Source: Spirochaetales bacterium
GTDB taxonomy: Bacteria; Spirochaetota; Spirochaetia; Treponematales; UBA12059
Length of the DNA: 46,266 nucleotides
Direction of reading: 5' to 3'
Assembly: GCA_016928955.1 (NCBI GenBank)
Contig: JAFGJV010000022.1
Location: 1-46,266, forward strand
Every line of letters begins with the position of its first letter. The stretch's first letter is position 1. This document shows, one piece after another, positions 22,002 to 39,580 of this stretch. Below the pieces are notes generated by a model. That model was not told the origin of the DNA. It did not search any database and was given only the letters and a program-made list of their open reading frames with translations. The translations under genes were made by a program, and so were the position numbers.

Positions 22002-22030
22002 TTGACGCCAATCAGCGCTTTGTCTATTCT
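22002..22030 (+). promoter_or_regulatory. Promoter of the riboswitch-controlled transporter
   Basis: TTGACG (22002-22007), a 17-base spacer and TATTCT (22025-22030). The expected transcript start, near 22037, lies immediately before the first strand of the riboswitch aptamer, which supports both calls. Confidence 0.65.
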
Positions 22031-22037
22031 CGTTTGG

Positions 22038-22130
22038 TCGATTGGGGAGTAGTCGAACCGTCCCTAGCCAACAACCGGCGCGTTGCGCCTGGCCGGACGG
22101 CCGCCCTGAGCGGGGAGACAAGACCTTTCG
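22038..22130 (+). ncRNA. yybP-ykoY (Mn2+) riboswitch aptamer
   Basis: The leader contains GGGGAGTAG (22044-22052) near its 5' end and CAAGACCTTTCG (22119-22130) at its 3' end. These are the two conserved blocks of the yybP-ykoY manganese-sensing aptamer. Between them, CCGTCC (22058-22063) pairs with GGACGG (22095-22100), GCCA with TGGC, and GGCGC with GCGCC in one long arm that holds an ACAACC internal loop. CCGC/GCGG closes a second arm at 22101-22113. The closing helix (22039-22045 with 22124-22130) has two T-T mismatches, its weakest point. The family is known to switch genes on when Mn2+ is bound. The identification rests on motif recall and pairing, not on a covariance search. Confidence 0.7.
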
Positions 22131-22179
22131 CGCGGCAGACCTGCCAGGATGCGGGTAGCTACGTGGAAGGTCTTTTTTT
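22120..22179 (+). terminator. Riboswitch-controlled intrinsic terminator
   Basis: AAGACCTTTC (22120-22129) pairs with GGAAGGTCTT (22165-22174); three further pairs including a G-T wobble extend the stem to about 13 bp. Seven T residues occupy 22173-22179. The 5' arm is the same strand that closes the aptamer, so aptamer folding and terminator folding exclude each other. It sits about 70 bases before the transporter ATG. Confidence 0.78.
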
Positions 22180-22247
22180 GCAGCGTGTCGGGAACGATAC
22201 TAGCTGTGCGTGGCAAGGGCGGGACTGCCGGCCAAGGGAGGGTGGGA

Positions 22248-23522
22248 ATGAAATACGCGGTGCTTGGGATAGCGGTACTCATGTACGCCCTGGTCATAGC
22301 CCTGCCGCACCGCAAGGTGTGGTTTACGCTCGGAGCCGCCTTGTTGGTGACCGTGCTCGGGGTGGTGAGCCCCGCCCAGGTGTTCGGGGTCCTGATCAAC
22401 TGGAACGTGCTCCTGATTTACATCGGCAGCCTGGTCATAGCCGACCTCTTTATCTACTCCCGCGTGCCGTCCGCCCTGGCCGACAGGATCGTGGAGCGAT
22501 CGCCGTCGCTGGGCATGGGCGTGGTGTTCATCCTCATCATGACCGGGCTCCTGTCAGCCTTTGTGGAAAACGTGGCCACGGTCCTGGTCATGGCGCCCAT
22601 AGCCCTGGCCCTGGCCGACAAGGTCAAGATAGACGCCCGCTTCTTCCTTCTCGGCCTGGCGGTTATGTCCAATCTGCAGGGCACGGCTACCTTGGTAGGC
22701 GACCCGCCGTCAATGATTTTTGCCGGCTACGCGGGCTACTCGTTCAACGACTTTTTCTTCAAGGACGGCCGCCCGTCGATTTTCTTTGCCATCCAGGCGG
22801 CCATGATTGTCGGCGCTGTGTTCTTCTTCTGGTTCTACCGCAAGCACGGCAAGGTCAGGATAGACCTGCCCGCCGAGCGCATCGTGTCGTGGTTTCCCAC
22901 CATCCTTCTTGTGCTTCTTGTGGGCGGGCTGGCCTTGATATCCTTCTTCCACGAGGGCTTCTCGATACTGTCCGGGGCATTTGTGTTCGCGCTCGGGCTC
23001 GTCGGCCTGGCCTGGTACGCGTGGGTTCGCCGCGAGCCCAAGGACAAGGTGCTTGAGCTGGTCAAAAACCTGGACTGGGAGACCATCCTGTTCCTGGTGG
23101 GAATTTTCGTGGTCGTGGGGGCCGTGGCCCAGACCGGCCTTCTTGAGGACCTGTCCAGGGCCCTGGCCAATTTTGTGAACGGGAACGTGCTTCTGGGCTT
23201 TATAGCCATTGTGCTCCTGTCCGTGCTCCTGTCCGGATTTATAGACAACGTGCCGTACATTATCGTTATGCTGCCCGTGGCCGCGTCGCTGTCCTCAGCC
23301 CTCAACCTGAAGCCCGAGCTGTATATGTTCGGTCTCCTCATAGGCTCGTGCATAGGCGGCAACCTCACGCCCTTTGGCGCCAGCGCCAACGTGGTTGCGG
23401 CGGGCATTTTGAAAAAGCGGGGCGAACCGATGAACTTCGGGCGCTGGATAGCCGTGGCCGGCCCCTTTACGGTGCTGACCACGCTGACTGCCGCTGTTTT
23501 CATCTGGCTGGTATGGCGCTGA
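22248..23522 (+). CDS. ArsB/NhaD-type ion transporter (SLC13-like, ion transporter superfamily)
   Basis: A 424-residue membrane protein with about eleven hydrophobic segments and two homologous halves, each with a signature loop: SAFVENVATVLVMAPIALAL near residue 104 and SGFIDNVPYIIVMLPVAASL near 328. TATLVGDPPSMIFA and GGNLTPFGASANVVAAGILK are the matching substrate-site loops of the ArsB/NhaD/P-protein group. Members move arsenite, Na+/H+ or dicarboxylates. The Mn2+-type riboswitch upstream suggests manganese or divalent-cation export here, an inference from regulation. ATG at 22248 is preceded by a GGGAGGGTGGG stretch. A longer in-frame start at 22149 would lie within the terminator region and is rejected. 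A terminator follows. Confidence 0.85.
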   Translation: MKYAVLGIAVLMYALVIALPHRKVWFTLGAALLVTVLGVVSPAQVFGVLINWNVLLIYIGSLVIADLFIYSRVPSALADRIVERSPSLGMGVVFILIMTGLLSAFVENVATVLVMAPIALALADKVKIDARFFLLGLAVMSNLQGTATLVGDPPSMIFAGYAGYSFNDFFFKDGRPSIFFAIQAAMIVGAVFFFWFYRKHGKVRIDLPAERIVSWFPTILLVLLVGGLALISFFHEGFSILSGAFVFALGLVGLAWYAWVRREPKDKVLELVKNLDWETILFLVGIFVVVGAVAQTGLLEDLSRALANFVNGNVLLGFIAIVLLSVLLSGFIDNVPYIIVMLPVAASLSSALNLKPELYMFGLLIGSCIGGNLTPFGASANVVAAGILKKRGEPMNFGRWIAVAGPFTVLTTLTAAVFIWLVWR

Positions 23523-28717: not shown

Positions 28718-28894
28718 GACTCTCTGCGGCGTTACGTTTCTATTCCGCTCGGGAATACCAAGCCGTGCTCCGCGGTCCGGTTATTAATTCATAGCCCATA
28801 GATCTCGTATAGGAAGTCTTCCGCCGGGAGTTTCGTCGTCTCCGGAGGAACCGGGGCTTCTTCTACCCCGCACGCTTCCGAGATGGAGGATGGA

Positions 28895-31800
28895 ATGAAG
28901 TCCAAGGCGGCCAGGGAACCCATCGTCATAGCGGGTATTGGATGCGCGTTCCCGGGAGGGGCGGATTGTCCCGACGCGTTCTGGAAACTGCTCCTTGACG
29001 GCAGGGATACGGTGACCACCGTGCCGCCCAGCCGTTGGGACGCCGATGCCTTCTACCACCCGGACTGGACCGTGTACGGCAAGATACACAGCAAGTACGG
29101 GTCCTTCCTTTCGGACGAGCAGCTGGAAACCTTTGACCCCCTGTTCTTCGGAATTCCCCCGCTGGCCGCCCAGAAGATGGACGTGCAGCAGCGCTGGCTC
29201 CTGGAGGCGTCGTTCCGGGCGCTTGAGGACGCGGGCGTAGGGTTGGAAACCGTGGACGGCTCCAACTGCGGTGTCTACATAGGCGTATCCGCCAAGGAAT
29301 ACGGCGAGCTGGTCATGAGCGACCATGTCCGCGACGTCATAGACGGCAACAGCATAGTGGGCAACTCGGCCGCCATTTGCTCCAACCGCATATCGTACAT
29401 CTTCAACCTGAAGGGTCCCAGCATCACCATGGACACGGCCTGCTCGTCGTCCTTGGTCGCCCTGCACACGGCCTGCCAAGCTATCTGGAACGGGGATATA
29501 GACGCGGCCCTGGTGGGCGGCGTCAACGCCATATTGTCGCCTGAAGTGTCATTGGCCTTTTCCACCGGCGGCTACCTGTCGCCGGACGGGCGCTGCAAGG
29601 CCTTTGACCACAGGGCCAACGGCTATGTGCGCGCTGAGGGCGTGGGCGTGGTGTACCTTCTGCCGGCGTCCAAGGCGCGCGACGCGTACGCGTCCATATT
29701 GGGCACGGCCCTGACCCAGGACGGCTTTACCGTGGGTATCAGCCAGCCTGATCCCGAAGCCCAGGCTCGGGTCATCCGGAACGCGTGCGCGTCGGCCGGC
29801 GTGGATCCGGCCGAGCTGTCGTACGTGGAGGCGCACGGCACGGGCACCGCCGTGGGCGATGTAGTGGAAGCCCAGTCCATAGGCCGGGCGGTGGGGCAGG
29901 CGCGCGGAGACGCGGGGCCGATCCTTGTCGGTTCGGTAAAAACAAACATAGGCCACTGCGAGCCTGCCTCCGGCATGGCGGGCCTTGTCAAAGTGGCGCT
30001 CAGCCTGAAGGAAGGCGTCATTCCCGGCAACCTGCATTTCCAGAAACCCAACCCCGGTGTGGATTTTGACCAGCTCAATATAGAAGTGGCTGTGGGACAG
30101 AGAGCCTGGCCGAACGGCCGGCGGCTGGCCGGCGTCAATTCCTTTGGCTTTGGCGGCACCAACGCTCATGTGGTGCTCGGAGAGGCGCAGGATGTTCCGG
30201 CGCCCAAGAAAACCGCCGCGGCCGCCCCTCGGCCGCTGTTTACCCTGAGCGCCAGGTCCAAGAAGGCGCTCTCCGCTTCCATGCTGAGGTACGCCGACTG
30301 GCTGGACGAGCATCCCGACCTGAACATGAACGACGTATGCGCCACCCAGGCCTTGCACCGCTCGGCCTTTCCCTGGCGCTTTGCGTTAGGCGTGCGCGAC
30401 CGGGAAAGCCTGTCCGCACTGCTCAGGCAGGCGGCCACGGGCGACGCGCCCCAGGGCTCGGCGCTGGGACGGGCGGAAGATGCCAGACCGGGCGTGGCTT
30501 TTGTGTTCTCGGGCCAGGGCGGCCAGTGGTGGGGTATGGCCCGGGACCTGATGGACGGCAGTCCCTCCTTTATGGAAACGCTCCGGCTGTGCGCGATCAC
30601 GATACAGTCCTTCACGGGCAGGGATCTTGAAGCGGAGCTACGCAAAGACGAGGAAAGCTCGATAATCGGCACATCGTTCGGGCAACTGGCATTGCTGGCC
30701 GTGCAGATGGCCTCGGTGAGCCACTGGGCGTCCCTGGGCGTCAGGCCGGCAGCCGTGGTTGGCCACAGCATAGGCGAGGTGGCCGCGGCCTGGACTTCCG
30801 GCGTCATCGGGCTGGAAGACGCCATACGCATCGTGTACCAGCGCATGCTGGTTTTGGACGAGATATCCGGTTTTGGAACCATGTTGGCCGTTGGCCTGTC
30901 GGAGAAAGACGCCGAACGCTATCTGGCAGACTCCGGCCTGAGCTCGGAGATAGGCACGGTCAACGGGCCGTCCTTGGTCACCTTCTCAGGCGCCAGGGAC
31001 GAGCTGGAACGGGCGGCCGCCGATCTGGAAGCCAAGGGCGTGTACGCAAAATTCCTCAAGGTTACCGGCCCCTTCCACAGCCGCCACATAGAGCGCTACC
31101 GGGAACGAATCGTGGGGGAATTCGCCTATCTCAGGCCCGCATCCCCGACTGTACCCTACTATTCGAGCGTTAGCGGCTCGTTGCTGTCCGGTCCCATCTT
31201 TGACGCGGACTACACCTACCGCAACCTCAGACAGCGGGTGCGGTTCGCCCAGGCTATAGAGCGCATGATAGACGACGGCTGGACCAGCTTTGTGGAAATC
31301 GGGCCGCATCCCAGCCTGGTGCCCTACGTGGCCGAGACGGCTACGGCTAGGCGCCGGCCCTGCCAGGTGTTGCCGACCATGCGGCGCAAGGAAAACGACT
31401 GGGACGTATGCCTGGCCACGCTGGCCGCCCTCCATGTCCAGGGTTGTGACGTGGACATAGGCGCGCCCTGGAAGGACGGGACCTATGTCCGCCAGAGGCC
31501 GCCGGCCTATCCCTTCCAGAAGGAACGCTACTGGTTCGAGAAAGCCGCGTCCAGGGCGTCGCGCATGGGCCGCCGCGTCCATCCCCTGGTCGCGTCGCGC
31601 TCCGACCTGCCCGGCAGGGAGGGCACCCATGCCTGGAAGCTGATGCTGTCCAAGCGTGTGGTGCCGTGGATAGCCCAGCATGTGGTGCAGGGCGGCATCA
31701 TCTTCCCGGCCGCGGGTATATGCGAAACGGCCCTGGGCTGCGCCCAGGACGCCTTTGGCGAGCGCTTCGTCGCCCTGGAGGATCTCAGGTTCATGCAGGG

Positions 31801-34800
31801 CGTGTACCTTCCCAAGGGCGACGAGGAGGAGCCGGAGATCGTGCTGTCCGTGTCGGGCGACGACGGGTCCTTCAGCGTGGCGTCCCGGCCGGCTGACGCG
31901 TCCGGGGCCTGGACCACGCACTGCGCCGGCCGCATGACCCACCGGGGCCGGGCACCGGACCGCGACATACCCGATGTGGCCGTGGCGCGAGCGTCGTTCA
32001 CGGAGGCGGACCGGGACGATTTTGAGCCCATCTACCGCAAGATGGCGGAGAACGGCCTTGAGCTCGGTCCGTCGTTCCGCGCAATCAGGCGTATATGGAT
32101 ACGGGCAGGCGGGCAGTGGCTGGGCGAGGCTTACGGCGAGGTGGAGGCGGACGAGCGCGACGGCTTTGACCTGGACTCGTACAACATACACCCGGCCGTG
32201 CTGGACTCCTGCTGGCAGATTCTCATCCCGGTGATCGTGCGTCACACGGGTGACGACGACATGCTGTGCCTGCCCGTGTCCGTGGGCAGTTTCAGGTTGT
32301 TGCGGGCGCCTCGAGGGGTCCTCTCCTGTTACGGGCGCCTGCGCTCCACGGACGGCCGGTCCTTTGTGACCGACGTGTGGGTATACGACGCCGAGGGCCG
32401 GCCCTGCCTGGAAATCCTGGGCTTTACCGTGCGGCACATAGAAGGCACCGGCCATGACGCGGCCGCGCGCGTGGCCGCCATAAGCTACCGCCCCAGCTGG
32501 AACGACTCTCCCCTGGTGCTGGCCGAGGGCGCCGTGAAAACGCTGCCGTCGGACATGAGGCCGGGAGGAACCTGGCTGGTGTTCATGGACGCCGCGCAGT
32601 CGCTTGGCGGCGTGGTGGTCGGCCTTAGGGAACTCGGTGAACGCGTGGTGGTGGCGCTGCCGGGCGTTTCCTATGACCTGCGTGGCGACGAGGCGACTCT
32701 GGCGCGGCAAGACGCCGGGGATATGGCCCGGCTCGTGGCCGAAATGGGTCCCGGGAGCGTTCGCGGCCTGGTGTACGGCTGGAGCCTGGACCGCGCGACG
32801 GCCGCCGGACAGGCCTTTGGCGACGGGTCCGCGGCCGCCCTGGAGACGCTTGCCCTGCTCCGGCCGCTGTGCGCGCTTCCCCAGCCGCCGCGGACCTGGG
32901 TGCTGACGCGTCAGGCTTCAGACGCGGGCCCCGATCCCGATCCCGCCCTTGCCGGAGCTGTGGGCGTGGCCCGGGTGGCCATGCATGAGCATCCGGCTTT
33001 GGCGCTGACCCTGGTGGATATGGACTCGGATGGCGCTCCGCCCTTGGACGAATTCCTGCGCCGAGAGAACGACGAGGAAGTGGCCTGGCTGGGAGACAGG
33101 CGCGTGGCCCGCGTGATTGTCCACACGGACCCAGACCGGGAGCGCCTGGACGCCCTGAAGCCGCTGGACAAAAATACGGTCTTTGGCCTGGCTCTGGACA
33201 GGCAGTCCGGTTCCGATACGGCTGTCCTTCGGGCCGTCCAGGCTCCGGTCCCCGGACCCGGGGAGGTTGAAGTTCTGGTGTCGCATGTGGCACTGGACAC
33301 CAAAGGACGGCTGTCCGGCCCGGCGGATGCCTACCCGGCCCGGGCTTTTTCCGGAGTGGTCGGTAGGGTGGGGCCCGGCGTGGCGGGATTCTCGGAAGGC
33401 GACGCGGTGGCCGGTGTCCTGGCGGCCGCGCCAGCCAATAGGCTGCGTGTGGACGCGCGGTGCCTGCGCGTTTTGAAACCTGGCGCGGACCCGGCCCAGG
33501 CAGCGGCCGCTGAATGGAACGGGCTCGTGGCAGCCTCCGTGCGCGGCACGCTCGCGGGGCTTGCCGCTGATGCGTCCGTTGTGGTGGTGGCCAGCCCTTC
33601 GTCGCCCTGGCGTGAACTTGTGGCGGCCCTGGGCACCCGGCCCGTGTCAGTGGCTCCCGTGGGCGGCCTGGATTCGGCGGAGCTTGAGCGCGCTGGCGCC
33701 GTGGCCGTTCCGGAAGGCGCCGAACTGGGCGCGGATGCCGTGGTGTGCCTGGCGGCGGAAGCCAATCTGTACCTGGCGTCCCGATCCTTGCGCCACGGAG
33801 GCCTGATCGTGGTGGCCGACCGCGCCTGCCTGGACGCGGGGGGACAGGTGCCCGCGTCGGTATTGTCGCGCTGTTCGAGTGTGACCACGGTGGATGAAAC
33901 GGCACTGGATGGAAATCACGAGGCATTGCCGGGTCCGTTCCGGCTGTTCACGCTTGCCCAGGCTTCCGATGCCTTGTCCGCGCGCCGGGCGGGGCCCTGC
34001 GCCGTGCTTGACCTGGGCGCCACTGAAGGCGCTAGTTTGTCTCCGGCACGGAGTCTGGCCGAGCTGGTCAGGGCGGACGCCACGTACGTGGTTACGGGAG
34101 GCCTAAAAGGACTCGGCCTGGCCATCAGCGAATTCCTGTGCACAAGCGGCGCGCGTCACCTGGTGCTGGTCGGGCGGAGCGGCGCGGACAGCGACGAGGC
34201 CCGCGCCGGGCTGGTAAAACTGGAAGACGCGGGCGCGGTCGTGCGGGTGGTCAGGGGAGACGTCAGCGACCCGAGCGTTGCGGAATCCTTGTTCCGACAG
34301 GACGGATTCCCACCGGTGCGCGGCGTGGTGCACTGCGCCGCCGTGTTTGATGACGCCCTGCTGGCCGATATGGACGCGGAGCGCTTCCTTGGCGTATACG
34401 GCCCAAAGGCACGGGGTGCTTTCAACCTGCACAGGGCGGCCGGTCCCATGGATTTCTTCCTCTGTTTCAGCTCAGTGTCCGCCGCCTACGGCAATCCCTC
34501 GCAGGCCAATTACGCGGCCGCCAACGCCTATCTGGATTCCCTGTGCCTGAGTCGTCGTGTCCGCGGGCTTGGCGGCCTGGCTTTGGCCTGGGGCGTGATA
34601 GGCGGCGCAGGGTACGTGGCCCGGAACGGCAAGGTGGCCGACATGCTGGGCGCCCAGGGCTGGAAACCCCTGTCCTTGCGCGACATAGGGGAGACCCTGG
34701 ATGCCTACCTGCCGGCCGACCCGGGCTACCGCCTGGTCATGGACCTGGATTGGGCCAAGCTCGGGCAGATCAACCCAGCCGACCGGAGCAGCGCCCGCTT

Positions 34801-37800
34801 TGGCGCCCTGACAGGCGCAGGGTCGGGCCCGTCGGAATTGTCCGATAGCCTGGCCGACCGTCTGGCCACATTGGATCCCACGGAAGCCAAAGCTGTTCTT
34901 GAGGCCGAGTTGTCCGCCCAGGTGGCGCGCATAGCCGGCCTGGCCCTGGACGACGTGGATCCGGACGAGCCCATCACGGCGCTCGGGCTGGACTCCCTCA
35001 TGGTCAACCAGCTGCGCAACTGGATCATGGCGGCGCTCAAGACCCAGGTAACCATGATGAAGCTGATGATGGGGCCCAGCGTCAGGGCCCTGGCGGGTTC
35101 CCTGCTGGACGGCAGCTCGGACGCCGCTACCGAGGGCAATGAAACCAATCCCTTCTCCAAGCCCATACCGGCGGCTCCGGACGCGGACAGCTATCCGGTG
35201 ACGTCCAGCCAGCGCCGCGTGCTCCTGTTGTCGCACCTGGACCCGTCCAGCGTCAACTACAACATACCCGTGGCCGTGCGCATACGCGCGGACGTGGACC
35301 CCGAGCGGGCCCTGGCGGCCTTCCGTACCCTGGTGCAGTCCTACGAGACCCTCCGCACGTCCTTTGTGTTCGAGGGCGGCGAATTCCGCCAGCGCGTGCA
35401 CAGCCGTGTGGACATAGAGGCGGCCTACGACGAGTTTCCGGAAACGGAGGTGGATCTCCGCCTGGCCGCGTTCTTCAAGCCGTTTGACCTCGGCAAGGCT
35501 CCGCTCTGCCGGGCCCTGGTGGCCAAGCTGGCCGAACGCGACTACCTCCTGGTCATCGAGATGCACCATTCCATCATAGACGCCAATTCGGGCGGCATAC
35601 TTCTGGACGCCTTTTTCAGGATTTACTCGGGCGCGGAACCCGAGCCCGAGCGCGTCCGCTACCGCGACTACGCCGTGTGGGAGGCGGGCCTCCGCGCGGA
35701 CGGGGCCTACGCGGGAAGCGAGGCGTTCTGGCTGGACAGGCTGAAGGGTCCGCTGCCGTCCCTGGACTTGCCCACCGATTTCCCGCGGCCACGGCGGCAG
35801 AGCTTTGAGGGTGACGAGGTGCGCTTCAGGCTCGGTCCCGCCCGCGTGGGCCAGCTGAAGGACCTGGCCGCCAAGACGGGCGCCACCCTGTCCATGGTGC
35901 TCCTGGCCGCGTTCAAGACCCTCCTCCACCGCTACTCGGGCCAGGAGGACATGATCGTGGGCCTGCCGGCTTCAGCCAGGCGGCACGCCGACCTGGAGCG
36001 GCTCATGGGCATGCTGGTCAGCACCATACCCCTGCGGAGCGCGCCGGCGTCGCGCAAGCGCTTTGTGGACTACCTGACCGAGCTCAAGGGCATAGCCATA
36101 GAGTCATACGAGAACCAGGACTATCCCTTTGACGACCTCTTTGAGCGCCTGGTGGTGGACCGCGAGCTGAGCCGCAATCCCCTGTACGACGTGTCCTTCA
36201 CCTTCCAGGACGTGGACCTGTCCTTCTCCGCTCTGGCCGCCGACGGATCGGTGGATGCGTACCGCCTGCCCAGGCGGGCGGTGCGTTTTGACCTGGGCCT
36301 GGAGTGCTTTGAGCGCGACGAGGGCGTGGACGTGGCCCTGTGCTACGCAACCAGGCTGTTCCGTCCGGAAAGCGCCCGGCGCATGGCTTCCAGCCTTGAG
36401 CGCATCCTGGACGCCGTGTCGGAAGATCCCAAGCTGAAAATAGGCGAACTGCCCGTGCTCTCGGAAGCCGAACGGGCCATGCTGGCAAGCGGCATGGAAC
36501 GCCGCGCGGACATTCCGGACGGCTCGTGGTTCGGGCTGTTCGAGATGGCGGCCGCCGCACACGCGGACAAGCCGGCTCTGGTCGGAACCGCTGGCGTTGT
36601 CCTTTCGTACGGCGCCCTTCTGGACCGGGCCCTGAGGGTGGCCGGCGCCGTGCTCGGCGCAGGGGCAACACCGGGGCAGAGGGTGGCCGTGCTGGCCGAG
36701 CGCCATGAGGACACGGTGGCGGCCATCCTCGGGGTGCTGGCGGCCGGCTGTTCCTTTGTTCCCTTTGACCCGGCGTATCCGGACGCCCGCCTTGCGGACA
36801 TGGCCGGGGACGCGGGCATTCGTCTGTGCCTCGGCCGGGCGGCCTTGAAGGATAGGGCCAGCGCGGTCGGCCTGGGCTTTGTCGATTCCCAGGGAGGCGA
36901 TCGGGCCGCCACCGCCACGCCCAGTTCAGGCGGGGACGAGGCCTACGTCATCTTTACCTCCGGTTCCACAGGCCGGCCCAAGGGCATAGCCGTCAGCCAC
37001 CGGAGCCTGCTCAACTACTGCTCATGGCACAACCGCCACTACGGGCTGGGGCCGGGCGAGGTGTGCTCCAAGTACGCGTCGTTCTCCTTTGACGGCGGCC
37101 TCAAGGAATTCCTGCCGCCTCTCCTGGCGGGAGCCGCCGTGGCGGTTGTACCGGACGACCCGGACCTGCTCCTGGACACGGAAAACCTGGCGCCCTGGCT
37201 GAAAGAACGTTCGGTCACTTGCGCGTACTTCCCCACGCCGGTGGCCGAGGAATTCATGAAAGGCGACCATGACCTGCCGGCCCTGAAGGCCGTCATTGCC
37301 GGCGGCGACAGGCTGCACGGGTACCGGCCGCTGAGCTATGCCCTGTACAACCACTACGGACCGGCCGAGTGCACCATATCGTCCACGGTCCACAGGGTGG
37401 AGCGGGGCGGGCCGTCCGTGCCCATAGGCCGGCCGATAGACAACACGGCCGTCTATGTGCTGGACGGGGATTCCACCCTGGTCCCTCCCGGCGTTTACGG
37501 GGAGATATGCATAGCGGGAGCCGGCGTTGCCCTTGGGTACGTGGACGGCGACGACCGGGGCCGCTTCAGGCAGGATCCCTTCTATCCCGGCCGCCTCATG
37601 TACCGCACCGGAGACTACGGCCGCTGGTCGGGCGGCGGTGACCAGGTCCTGGAATTCGCCGGCCGCAGGGACGGCCAGGTCAAGGTGCGGGGGCACCGCG
37701 TGGAAACGGCCGACGTGGAAGCGGCCATGGGCGGACTGCAGGGCGCCGGCCGCGTGCGCGTGCTGGCCCTGGGCGACAATTTGGCCGGCTGTTGGGACGG

Positions 37801-39580
37801 CCTCCCGGCTGAGGCGGCCATGCGGGCCCACCTGTCCCGGTTCCTGCCCGCGTACATGGTCCCGACTATTCTGCGCCGGGTGGACTCCTTCCCGCTGACC
37901 GTGCACGGCAAGGTCGACGACGACGCCTTGAGGGCTGTCTGCGCCTCCCGGCCGGACGACGGCGCGCCGAGCGCCGAGTTGACCGAGGACGAGCGTCGCC
38001 TGGCTGATATTTGGGAAGGGGTGCTTGGCTCAAGGCCGCGCTCGCCAGATGACGGGTTCTTTGAGCTGGGCGGCAACTCGGTGAGCGCCATGCGCCTGAT
38101 CCACGCCATCCGCGGGGAACTGGGCGTGGACCTGCCCATGCGCGACGTGTTCTCCGCCAACGACCTGGGAGAGATGGCCAGGGCCATAGCGTCCCGGGGC
38201 ACGGCATCCGGCGACGCGGTGCCTGCCGCTTCTCCCTCCGCCGACTATCCGGTGAGCCGGTCTCAGGAAGCCATTCTGTTGATGGGCGACGCCTATGGAG
38301 CGAGCGCCGCGTACAACGAGGCGGGCGCGGTGATAGTGCCCTATCGCGTCGACCCTGGCCGCCTGTCCGCCGCCCTCCGCGTCCTTCAGGACCGCCATGA
38401 CGCGCTTCGCATGTATTTCCGGAGAAACGGCGCCGAGTACCGGCAGATCCTGGCTGACGGCATGGAGCCGCCCGTGTTCGAACTGGGCGCGCTTGCCGGG
38501 CTTGATCCCGCCCAGGCCGCCAGCGCGGCGGTCAAACCCTTTGACCCGACTCGGGCGCCCTTGTACCGGGTGTCTCACGGTCGCCTGGACGGAGGCAAAA
38601 GCCTCCTGGTCTTCGATTTCCACCACGCCATCATGGACGGCGCGTCCATAGGTGTTTTTGCGTCCGAGCTTGGGGCCTTGCTGGATGGCCGGGACCTGCC
38701 CCCGGCGCCGGCGCGAACCTTCCGGGATTTCAGCTCTTGGTTCGCGTCCCGGGGCGACGTGGAGACGGACCGGGCCTGGTGGCTGACCACCTTCTCTCCG
38801 CTGGCCGGACCCTTCCTCCTGCCCGTGGACCGGCCCCGCTCTCCGGTACCCGATTACCGCTCGGCGGAGTACGCCATGGAGCTGGACGCGGACACGGTGG
38901 CCAGGGCGGCCGTCACGGCGGCCGCGGCCAAGGCCAGCCTCTTCTCGTACTTCCTGGCCTGCATGGCCGTTGTCCAGTCGCGGTACGCCGGCACGGCCAG
39001 CTGCGTCATCGGCACGGTGGACGAGGGGCGCGGTCGGCCCGAATCGGCCGGGGTCCTGGGACCCTTCATGCGCACCTTGCCCATACTCTGCGAGGTGGAC
39101 GGCCGGGCCGGTTTCCTGGACGTGCTGTCCGGCGTGGCCGCCAATCTGGCCAACGCTATTGACCACGACGGCTACGCCTACGAGCGCCTGGCCGAGGAAC
39201 TTGGCCTCAAGCGCGTGCCGGGAACGCATCCTTTGTTCCAGACCATTTTCGCGTGGCAGAACGGCGAGGAAGGCCGCTCCGTGGTCGAGGCCATGGGCCA
39301 CGACGCCGTGAGGGCCGACTCGGGGGCGGCCAAGTTCGAGATTCTGGTTGACGGGACGCCCACGGCGGATGGCCGGGCGGAGTTCAGGTTTGAGTACCGG
39401 GCTGCCGTGTACGACGAGTCGAGCATCAGGCGCCTGGCTGAGGATTTTGCATCGGTGTGCGCCCACGCCGCCCGCGAGCCGCGCTGTCCGGCGGCCGAGC
39501 TCGGGCTTGAGCCGGCCGCGCAGGGTGCCGGGGAGCTGACCGAGGGCGGCTTTGACTTCAACGGGGGAGCCGAGGCATGA
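28895..39580 (+). CDS. Hybrid type I PKS-NRPS megasynthase (KS-AT-DH-ER0-KR-ACP-C-A-PCP-C)
   Basis: A 3561-residue assembly-line enzyme. KS (about residues 8-430) has Cys183 in DTACSSS, His314 in EAHGTGT and His354 in NIGHCE. AT (533-830) has Ser625 in GHSIGE and GPFHS, closer to malonyl- than methylmalonyl-type. DH (894-1185) has His929 in HxxxGxxxxP and Asp1104. A KR structural part precedes a degenerate ER (about 1438-1690) with no NADPH loop. KR (1730-1955) has TGGLKGLG, Ser1860, Tyr1873 and a B-type-like FDD. ACP carries Ser2034. C1 (2099-2536) has HHSIIDA, A1 spans 2544-3007, PCP carries Ser3062, and C2 (3117-3561) has HHAIMDG. ATG 28895 has GGAGG five bases upstream. There is no loading or N-terminal docking domain. 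The stop overlaps the next gene (ATGA). Confidence 0.96.
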   Translation: MKSKAAREPIVIAGIGCAFPGGADCPDAFWKLLLDGRDTVTTVPPSRWDADAFYHPDWTVYGKIHSKYGSFLSDEQLETFDPLFFGIPPLAAQKMDVQQRWLLEASFRALEDAGVGLETVDGSNCGVYIGVSAKEYGELVMSDHVRDVIDGNSIVGNSAAICSNRISYIFNLKGPSITMDTACSSSLVALHTACQAIWNGDIDAALVGGVNAILSPEVSLAFSTGGYLSPDGRCKAFDHRANGYVRAEGVGVVYLLPASKARDAYASILGTALTQDGFTVGISQPDPEAQARVIRNACASAGVDPAELSYVEAHGTGTAVGDVVEAQSIGRAVGQARGDAGPILVGSVKTNIGHCEPASGMAGLVKVALSLKEGVIPGNLHFQKPNPGVDFDQLNIEVAVGQRAWPNGRRLAGVNSFGFGGTNAHVVLGEAQDVPAPKKTAAAAPRPLFTLSARSKKALSASMLRYADWLDEHPDLNMNDVCATQALHRSAFPWRFALGVRDRESLSALLRQAATGDAPQGSALGRAEDARPGVAFVFSGQGGQWWGMARDLMDGSPSFMETLRLCAITIQSFTGRDLEAELRKDEESSIIGTSFGQLALLAVQMASVSHWASLGVRPAAVVGHSIGEVAAAWTSGVIGLEDAIRIVYQRMLVLDEISGFGTMLAVGLSEKDAERYLADSGLSSEIGTVNGPSLVTFSGARDELERAAADLEAKGVYAKFLKVTGPFHSRHIERYRERIVGEFAYLRPASPTVPYYSSVSGSLLSGPIFDADYTYRNLRQRVRFAQAIERMIDDGWTSFVEIGPHPSLVPYVAETATARRRPCQVLPTMRRKENDWDVCLATLAALHVQGCDVDIGAPWKDGTYVRQRPPAYPFQKERYWFEKAASRASRMGRRVHPLVASRSDLPGREGTHAWKLMLSKRVVPWIAQHVVQGGIIFPAAGICETALGCAQDAFGERFVALEDLRFMQGVYLPKGDEEEPEIVLSVSGDDGSFSVASRPADASGAWTTHCAGRMTHRGRAPDRDIPDVAVARASFTEADRDDFEPIYRKMAENGLELGPSFRAIRRIWIRAGGQWLGEAYGEVEADERDGFDLDSYNIHPAVLDSCWQILIPVIVRHTGDDDMLCLPVSVGSFRLLRAPRGVLSCYGRLRSTDGRSFVTDVWVYDAEGRPCLEILGFTVRHIEGTGHDAAARVAAISYRPSWNDSPLVLAEGAVKTLPSDMRPGGTWLVFMDAAQSLGGVVVGLRELGERVVVALPGVSYDLRGDEATLARQDAGDMARLVAEMGPGSVRGLVYGWSLDRATAAGQAFGDGSAAALETLALLRPLCALPQPPRTWVLTRQASDAGPDPDPALAGAVGVARVAMHEHPALALTLVDMDSDGAPPLDEFLRRENDEEVAWLGDRRVARVIVHTDPDRERLDALKPLDKNTVFGLALDRQSGSDTAVLRAVQAPVPGPGEVEVLVSHVALDTKGRLSGPADAYPARAFSGVVGRVGPGVAGFSEGDAVAGVLAAAPANRLRVDARCLRVLKPGADPAQAAAAEWNGLVAASVRGTLAGLAADASVVVVASPSSPWRELVAALGTRPVSVAPVGGLDSAELERAGAVAVPEGAELGADAVVCLAAEANLYLASRSLRHGGLIVVADRACLDAGGQVPASVLSRCSSVTTVDETALDGNHEALPGPFRLFTLAQASDALSARRAGPCAVLDLGATEGASLSPARSLAELVRADATYVVTGGLKGLGLAISEFLCTSGARHLVLVGRSGADSDEARAGLVKLEDAGAVVRVVRGDVSDPSVAESLFRQDGFPPVRGVVHCAAVFDDALLADMDAERFLGVYGPKARGAFNLHRAAGPMDFFLCFSSVSAAYGNPSQANYAAANAYLDSLCLSRRVRGLGGLALAWGVIGGAGYVARNGKVADMLGAQGWKPLSLRDIGETLDAYLPADPGYRLVMDLDWAKLGQINPADRSSARFGALTGAGSGPSELSDSLADRLATLDPTEAKAVLEAELSAQVARIAGLALDDVDPDEPITALGLDSLMVNQLRNWIMAALKTQVTMMKLMMGPSVRALAGSLLDGSSDAATEGNETNPFSKPIPAAPDADSYPVTSSQRRVLLLSHLDPSSVNYNIPVAVRIRADVDPERALAAFRTLVQSYETLRTSFVFEGGEFRQRVHSRVDIEAAYDEFPETEVDLRLAAFFKPFDLGKAPLCRALVAKLAERDYLLVIEMHHSIIDANSGGILLDAFFRIYSGAEPEPERVRYRDYAVWEAGLRADGAYAGSEAFWLDRLKGPLPSLDLPTDFPRPRRQSFEGDEVRFRLGPARVGQLKDLAAKTGATLSMVLLAAFKTLLHRYSGQEDMIVGLPASARRHADLERLMGMLVSTIPLRSAPASRKRFVDYLTELKGIAIESYENQDYPFDDLFERLVVDRELSRNPLYDVSFTFQDVDLSFSALAADGSVDAYRLPRRAVRFDLGLECFERDEGVDVALCYATRLFRPESARRMASSLERILDAVSEDPKLKIGELPVLSEAERAMLASGMERRADIPDGSWFGLFEMAAAAHADKPALVGTAGVVLSYGALLDRALRVAGAVLGAGATPGQRVAVLAERHEDTVAAILGVLAAGCSFVPFDPAYPDARLADMAGDAGIRLCLGRAALKDRASAVGLGFVDSQGGDRAATATPSSGGDEAYVIFTSGSTGRPKGIAVSHRSLLNYCSWHNRHYGLGPGEVCSKYASFSFDGGLKEFLPPLLAGAAVAVVPDDPDLLLDTENLAPWLKERSVTCAYFPTPVAEEFMKGDHDLPALKAVIAGGDRLHGYRPLSYALYNHYGPAECTISSTVHRVERGGPSVPIGRPIDNTAVYVLDGDSTLVPPGVYGEICIAGAGVALGYVDGDDRGRFRQDPFYPGRLMYRTGDYGRWSGGGDQVLEFAGRRDGQVKVRGHRVETADVEAAMGGLQGAGRVRVLALGDNLAGCWDGLPAEAAMRAHLSRFLPAYMVPTILRRVDSFPLTVHGKVDDDALRAVCASRPDDGAPSAELTEDERRLADIWEGVLGSRPRSPDDGFFELGGNSVSAMRLIHAIRGELGVDLPMRDVFSANDLGEMARAIASRGTASGDAVPAASPSADYPVSRSQEAILLMGDAYGASAAYNEAGAVIVPYRVDPGRLSAALRVLQDRHDALRMYFRRNGAEYRQILADGMEPPVFELGALAGLDPAQAASAAVKPFDPTRAPLYRVSHGRLDGGKSLLVFDFHHAIMDGASIGVFASELGALLDGRDLPPAPARTFRDFSSWFASRGDVETDRAWWLTTFSPLAGPFLLPVDRPRSPVPDYRSAEYAMELDADTVARAAVTAAAAKASLFSYFLACMAVVQSRYAGTASCVIGTVDEGRGRPESAGVLGPFMRTLPILCEVDGRAGFLDVLSGVAANLANAIDHDGYAYERLAEELGLKRVPGTHPLFQTIFAWQNGEEGRSVVEAMGHDAVRADSGAAKFEILVDGTPTADGRAEFRFEYRAAVYDESSIRRLAEDFASVCAHAAREPRCPAAELGLEPAAQGAGELTEGGFDFNGGAEA

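Follow-up and report, generated by a model that had tools for sequence, protein, structure and literature searches.

A P2-less yybP-ykoY-type leader and a candidate manganese exporter of the CitMHS/ArsB superfamily in Spirochaetota

The leader and its neighbors in the window

The window, a stretch of 46,266 nucleotides from a Spirochaetales bacterium, contains a leader RNA and a transporter gene on the plus strand. A sigma70-type promoter (22002–22030) can be read from the sequence as a -35 element TTGACG (22002–22007), a 17-nt spacer, and a -10 element TATTCT (22025–22030). It is followed by an aptamer of the yybP-ykoY type without a P2 helix (22038–22132), an intrinsic terminator (22120–22179), and an open reading frame that starts at 22248 and ends at 23522. 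The product is a 424-aa transporter of the CitMHS/ArsB superfamily, which is a candidate Mn2+ exporter. A MerR/TipAS-type regulator (PF07739, 23609–24406) is encoded just 3' of the transporter gene on the same strand. Farther downstream (28883–39580), the translation of a 3565-aa ORF resembles a hybrid PKS-NRPS, which is unusual at spirochaete genome size.

The switch helix of the aptamer is P1.1, in which the 5' strand CGAUUGG (22039–22045) is paired with 22124–22130 and contains two U-U mismatches. The first conserved block, GGGGAGTAG in the window (22044–22052), supplies the 5' strand of L1, GGGGAGUAG, and the first two G of this block close P1.1. The 3' strand of L1, CAAGA (22119–22123), was placed by alignment. 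Between the two strands of L1, a short P1.2 helix joins UC (22053–22054) to GA (22117–22118) and covaries between UU/AA and UC/GA. The P3 arm (22058–22100) is composed of P3.1 (CCGUCC/GGACGG, 22058–22063 and 22095–22100), L3, and P3.2 (GGCGC/GCGCC, 22077–22081 and 22085–22089); the 5' strand of L3 is GCCAACAACC (22067–22076). P4 is a hairpin, CCGC CCUGA GCGG (22101–22113), that also covaries.

The second conserved block, AAGACCTTTC (22120–22129), serves at the same time as 5' arm in a strong hairpin (22120–22174, -32.8 kcal/mol) that ends in seven T residues (22173–22179). The 5' arm of this terminator includes the 3' strand of P1.1. A first-pass annotation of this DNA had described the two blocks, the promoter, and a terminator that shares the strand closing the aptamer. 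All were located as described, the blocks in dozens of relatives as well, and the promoter position also recurs.

Conservation and class of the leader

Orthologs of the transporter are spread across the Spirochaetota and many are preceded by the same leader, a survey that the first-pass annotation had recommended. The leaders of the orthologs present, in order, GGGGAGUAG, UCAACA in an internal loop, ACAAGACC, and a terminator. A covariance model, R1, was made from 11 of these leaders and its use in a search identified 52 leaders in 49 of the 294 genomes of the order. Within an alignment of 50 leaders, 88.3% of the cells are paired and 21 of 25 pairs have changed on both sides; these counts are inflated by the fitting of the alignment to the model, but the slid and shuffled controls are nonetheless far apart from them. 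The covariation score was 0.497, compared to 0.07–0.142 when the alignment was slid, and none of 500 shuffles scored as high. Covariation, the lack of which was to have told against the riboswitch in the first reading, is therefore strong, and it supports helices P1.2, P3.1, P3.2, and P4. P1.1 also covaries in the relatives, where 95.8% of its cells pair and three pairs present two-sided changes.

Outside of the helices, the L3 motif is kept as either CAACA or GUCA, and both the L1 5' block and its 3' strand, CNAGAC (22119–22124 in the window), are near-invariant. Of 59 homologous leaders, 46 contain an exact complement to the P1.1 3' strand of at least 8 nt, followed by a run of five or more T. 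In 45 of 56 leaders, and in 7% of shuffles, a sigma70-like promoter lies upstream; its -10 element mostly ends 7–11 nt 5' of the aptamer. Dozens of relatives share these blocks and helices, the terminator, and the placement of the promoter, and this comparison of sequences indicates that their occurrence in the window is not due to chance.

The RF00080 match above threshold that the first-pass annotation had proposed as a check was not obtained: scanned alone, the window leader gave no match even at E ≤ 10. Similarly, a scan of the host genome with RF00080 returned no match and a scan of the 46-kb window with all of Rfam returned no family at threshold. Across the 294 genomes, RF00080 produced five matches, the highest of which (32.6 bits) was below the gathering score of 45 bits. 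Four of these are upstream of MntP, identified by Pfam for the L094 protein and by close similarity for the other three, and one (L098) is upstream of a CitMHS ortholog. Among sister leaders, weak detection was observed for L048 (E = 4e-4), with an alignment that covers GGGGAGUAG and UCAACAUAC, and for L098 (E = 2.7e-4), which has the same transporter downstream. The silence of RF00080 in the window is probably due to the loss of the P2 helix that it models.

A model that was built from the leaders of 11 MntP and two P-type ATPase genes only, R3, gave a single match in the 46-kb window, which spans the full aptamer (22038–22132, 33.3 bits, E = 3.3e-7). R3 also detected nearly all of the tested leaders of CitMHS, OadB, GDT1, Na/Ca-exchanger, and SufC genes, with E-values from 2e-17 to 2e-5. 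Another model, R2, that was trained on spirochaete leaders recovered the validated E. coli K-12 mntP riboswitch (33.9 bits, E = 2e-6) and scored the E. coli alx riboswitch weakly (15.7 bits). The window copy scored 64.3 bits with R2 as a member of the R2 training set. Because the sister leaders score weakly and the cross-trained R3 model finds the window leader, the RF00080 result was not taken as a refutation.

A plain attenuator, with a functional terminator and coincidental yybP-ykoY blocks, would agree with the lack of an Rfam match in the window. This explanation is already refuted by the comparative data, specifically the covariation, the cross-trained R3 model, and the recovery of E. 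coli mntP as a positive control, and its probability is negligible. These comparisons, along with the retained metal-sensing core, support the assignment of the leader to the yybP-ykoY class made in the first reading, and the window leader is a homolog from a divergent branch of that class in which P2 is absent.

The same leader was not found upstream of CitMHS homologs from 15 non-spirochaete genomes, nor in an Rfam scan of 11 CitMHS-homolog loci from other phyla; both are weak negatives that had no positive control there.

Aptamer structure and proposed switching

No P2 helix was identified in the window copy or in most of its relatives, and the junction is therefore three-way. In P2-less leaders, 13–16 nt separate GUAG from L3, compared to 27–28 nt in the relatives that have kept P2 (L018, L019, L024, L029, L048, L098, L158, and L159). 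A second, P2-containing subtype with an L. lactis-like L3 (GUCA...) is found upstream of the CitMHS orthologs L018, L019, L024, L029, and L098. A single gene family is thus served by both structural forms of the switch. The possibility that the three-way junction is a wholly new architecture was dropped, as such a junction has been reported in the yybP-ykoY riboswitch of S. pneumoniae mgtA (PMC9495176). The first-pass description of two blocks and helical arms is retained; the missing P2 and a weakened P1.1 had been overlooked.

The P1.1 helix of the window copy has five of seven pairs, and its duplex energy is -4.4 kcal/mol compared to -8.5 kcal/mol for the consensus. There is an extra bulge 5' of L3, and a rival hairpin is predicted that could sequester L1. 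On its own, the window aptamer has a minimum-energy fold no better than that of shuffled sequences (z = -0.31), and for this reason comparative evidence was used instead.

The mismatches, the bulge, and the weaker duplex could indicate that the family is a Mn2+ riboswitch of which the window copy is decaying, with switching lost through the two missing P1.1 pairs. A relative, L115, does have a truncated CitMHS gene behind an intact leader. Nucleation of P1.1 is known to involve two G-C pairs (PMC11087558), however, and both are retained in the window copy. Both loops, P3, P4, the promoter, the terminator, and the ORF are all intact, and U-U mismatches are also present in the P1.1 helix of L048. 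Decay of the window copy is thus considered unlikely.

In structures of the class, an invariant Mn-sensing adenine contacts Mn2+ through N7 (A48 in X. oryzae and A41 in L. lactis, PMC6754395). By alignment position only, the counterpart in the window is A22073, within CCAACA of L3. The conserved core and the regulon described below both point to Mn2+ as the ligand, and the overlap between P1.1 and the terminator argues for control in the ON direction. It is therefore likely that the window leader is a Mn2+-type ON riboswitch. According to this mechanism, RNA polymerase would start at the aptamer. At low Mn2+ concentrations, the P1.1 3' strand (within AAGACCUUUCG) would be drawn into the intrinsic terminator and transcription would stop. 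When Mn2+ is high, the ion would bridge L1 and L3 and P1.1 would be held, blocking the terminator. As a result of this antitermination, the transporter would be made and excess Mn2+ removed.

Targets of the leader and comparison with known systems

The 52 leaders of the order precede approximately 29 CitMHS genes, ten OAD_beta genes in nine genomes, nine MntP genes, two P-type ATPase genes, one Na/Ca exchanger gene, and one SufC-SufB operon. The commonest target is the CitMHS transporter. Additional targets across the phylum are MntP (L164), P-type ATPases (L166, L169, and L176), CitMHS (L168), and GDT1/UPF0016 (L171, from partly N-masked sequence). One genome has an array in which the RNA is followed by mntP and CitMHS (L153). 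The homology of the RNA, its covarying helices, its promoter and terminator architecture, and the presence of the same RNA upstream of established Mn-exporter families are supported directly.

Most genomes with a match have exactly one leader, which is upstream of one of several unrelated transporter families. This arrangement suggests that the transporter families under the leader may be functionally interchangeable, and the alternation is the strongest argument that the CitMHS and OadB proteins do the same job as MntP. A genome-wide mutual exclusion of MntP and CitMHS was considered and rejected, as PF02659 is present in 192 of the 294 genomes, including the host. What alternates between genomes is the gene that bears the leader; the mntP gene of the host (L136, G000:C47:65225-65695) has no detectable leader of this class.

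A stand-alone gene for OAD_beta, or OadB, the beta subunit of the sodium-pump decarboxylase, is directly 3' of the leader at L110, L113, L114, L116, L117, L120, L121, L123, L139, and L160, representing nine genomes. The identity was confirmed with PF03977 for L113 and L139, and no alpha subunit was seen beside the OAD_beta genes at the loci read. L113 also contains a match to the TD-1 RNA (RF03155) on the minus strand (1197–1316), which at 50.3 bits is under the cut-off of 64.5. At L145 (G240:C1:2311280-2313372), the leader has a non-transporter target, the SufC-SufB operon for Fe-S assembly. At L115 (571–717), the CitMHS gene behind the intact leader ends after 48 codons and represents a decayed copy.

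Since OAD_beta and the Na/Ca exchanger are both sodium-linked, the P2-less variant might have an altered ligand, either Na+ or Ca2+, with the transporter handling that ion. Oxaloacetate decarboxylase can be under the control of Na+-I riboswitches (PMC9337991), and tighter binding of Ca2+ than of Mn2+ has been reported for the three-way-junction mgtA riboswitch of S. pneumoniae, though Mn2+ activates transcription more (PMC9495176). The same P2-less RNA, however, is upstream of MntP, P-type ATPases, and GDT1, and the L1/L3 core is unchanged, including the invariant adenine. No match to the Na+-I (DUF1646) family was made in the Rfam scans of the window and the leader, and in Vibrio vulnificus a Na/Ca-exchanger gene, yrbG, is also under a yybP-ykoY riboswitch (PMC13274385). 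A change of ligand is therefore quite improbable and Mn2+ is preferred.

The window ORF matches PF03600 (CitMHS) with an E-value of 2.4e-68 and a score of 231 bits, well over the gathering cut-off of 31.9, and PF02040 (ArsB) with an E-value of 3.8e-14. The closest solved structures, both matched over the full length of the sequence, are VcINDY (4f35, 4.6e-19) and ArsB (10tp, 1.7e-7), and the match to VcINDY is taken to fix the fold of the transporter. With respect to the NCBIfam models for ArsB, NhaD, and DASS, the protein is far under the cut-offs (TIGR00785: 74.3 bits, cut-off 198.6), and the two SN(T) motifs of the DASS family are absent. The positions of these motifs in VcINDY are instead occupied by E107-N108-V and D333-N334-V, and E107, N108, D333, and N334 are invariant in all 13 aligned orthologs. 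The acidic residues found at both re-entrant tips would appear to favor a cation over a dicarboxylate. The label of an ArsB/NhaD fold in the first-pass annotation is appropriate for the superfamily; the best Pfam match is to the CitMHS family, with VcINDY and ArsB as the closest solved structures.

Characterized members of CitMHS, the best Pfam family, import metal-citrate. The RNA might then sense Mn2+ while the CitMHS protein moves a Mn2+-linked solute, such as metal-citrate, protons, or another anion, in a response to Mn excess. The SufC-SufB operon behind one leader demonstrates that some targets are not exporters. In opposition to this role, an ON switch driven by metal excess fits efflux over uptake, the CitMHS gene alternates with known Mn exporters between genomes, and the SN(T) carboxylate/Na+ motifs of DASS are replaced by E-N and D-N. 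A role other than export is a possible but minority reading, and Mn2+ efflux by the CitMHS-type protein itself, for which the regulon argues, is moderately favored.

Reviews of bacterial Mn exporters list MntP, CDF, P-type ATPase, UPF0016/GDT1, and TerC proteins (PMC9334652, PMC13274385). An exporter of the CitMHS/ArsB/NhaD or OadB type was not found in the non-subscription literature searched, though a prior mention of CitMHS under the switch is possible. As a candidate Mn2+ exporter from the CitMHS/ArsB superfamily, the transporter would probably represent a previously undescribed kind. For the phylum as a whole, there is an even chance that Spirochaetota place a P2-less Mn2+ riboswitch on whichever exporter a genome has, with the CitMHS/ArsB protein and the stand-alone OadB as unrecognized Mn2+ exporters. 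If true, the few protein families recognized as Mn2+ exporters in bacteria would gain one and possibly two members, and the P2-less leaders would provide a natural test of the need for P2 and a four-way junction in Mn2+ sensing. A whole Mn2+ riboswitch branch in the Spirochaetota, cultured Treponema parvum included, would then have been missed by the Rfam model.

In comparison to known systems, the transporter matches VcINDY over its full length but has E107-N and D333-N in place of SN(T), and it matches ArsB yet is far below the NCBIfam cut-off for that family. The MntP, P-type ATPase, and GDT1 genes of Spirochaetota share the leader with the CitMHS-type and OadB genes, whose proteins are absent from the lists of both reviews. 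As described in PMC9495176, the S. pneumoniae mgtA switch is also three-way, responds to Mn2+ and Ca2+, and controls a cation exporter, a P-type ATPase; the likeness is one of description. The spirochaete leader has the GGGGAGUAG and CNAGAC strands of L1, the L3 adenine, and the P3 and P4 arms in common with the yybP-ykoY RNAs of RF00080 (L. lactis yoaB, X. oryzae, and E. coli mntP and alx). Both have a P1.1 switch helix, with five of seven pairs in the window copy, that overlaps an intrinsic terminator, and gene families are shared with the sister loci. In contrast, the spirochaete leader is without P2, scores under every RF00080 threshold, and controls CitMHS and OadB genes.
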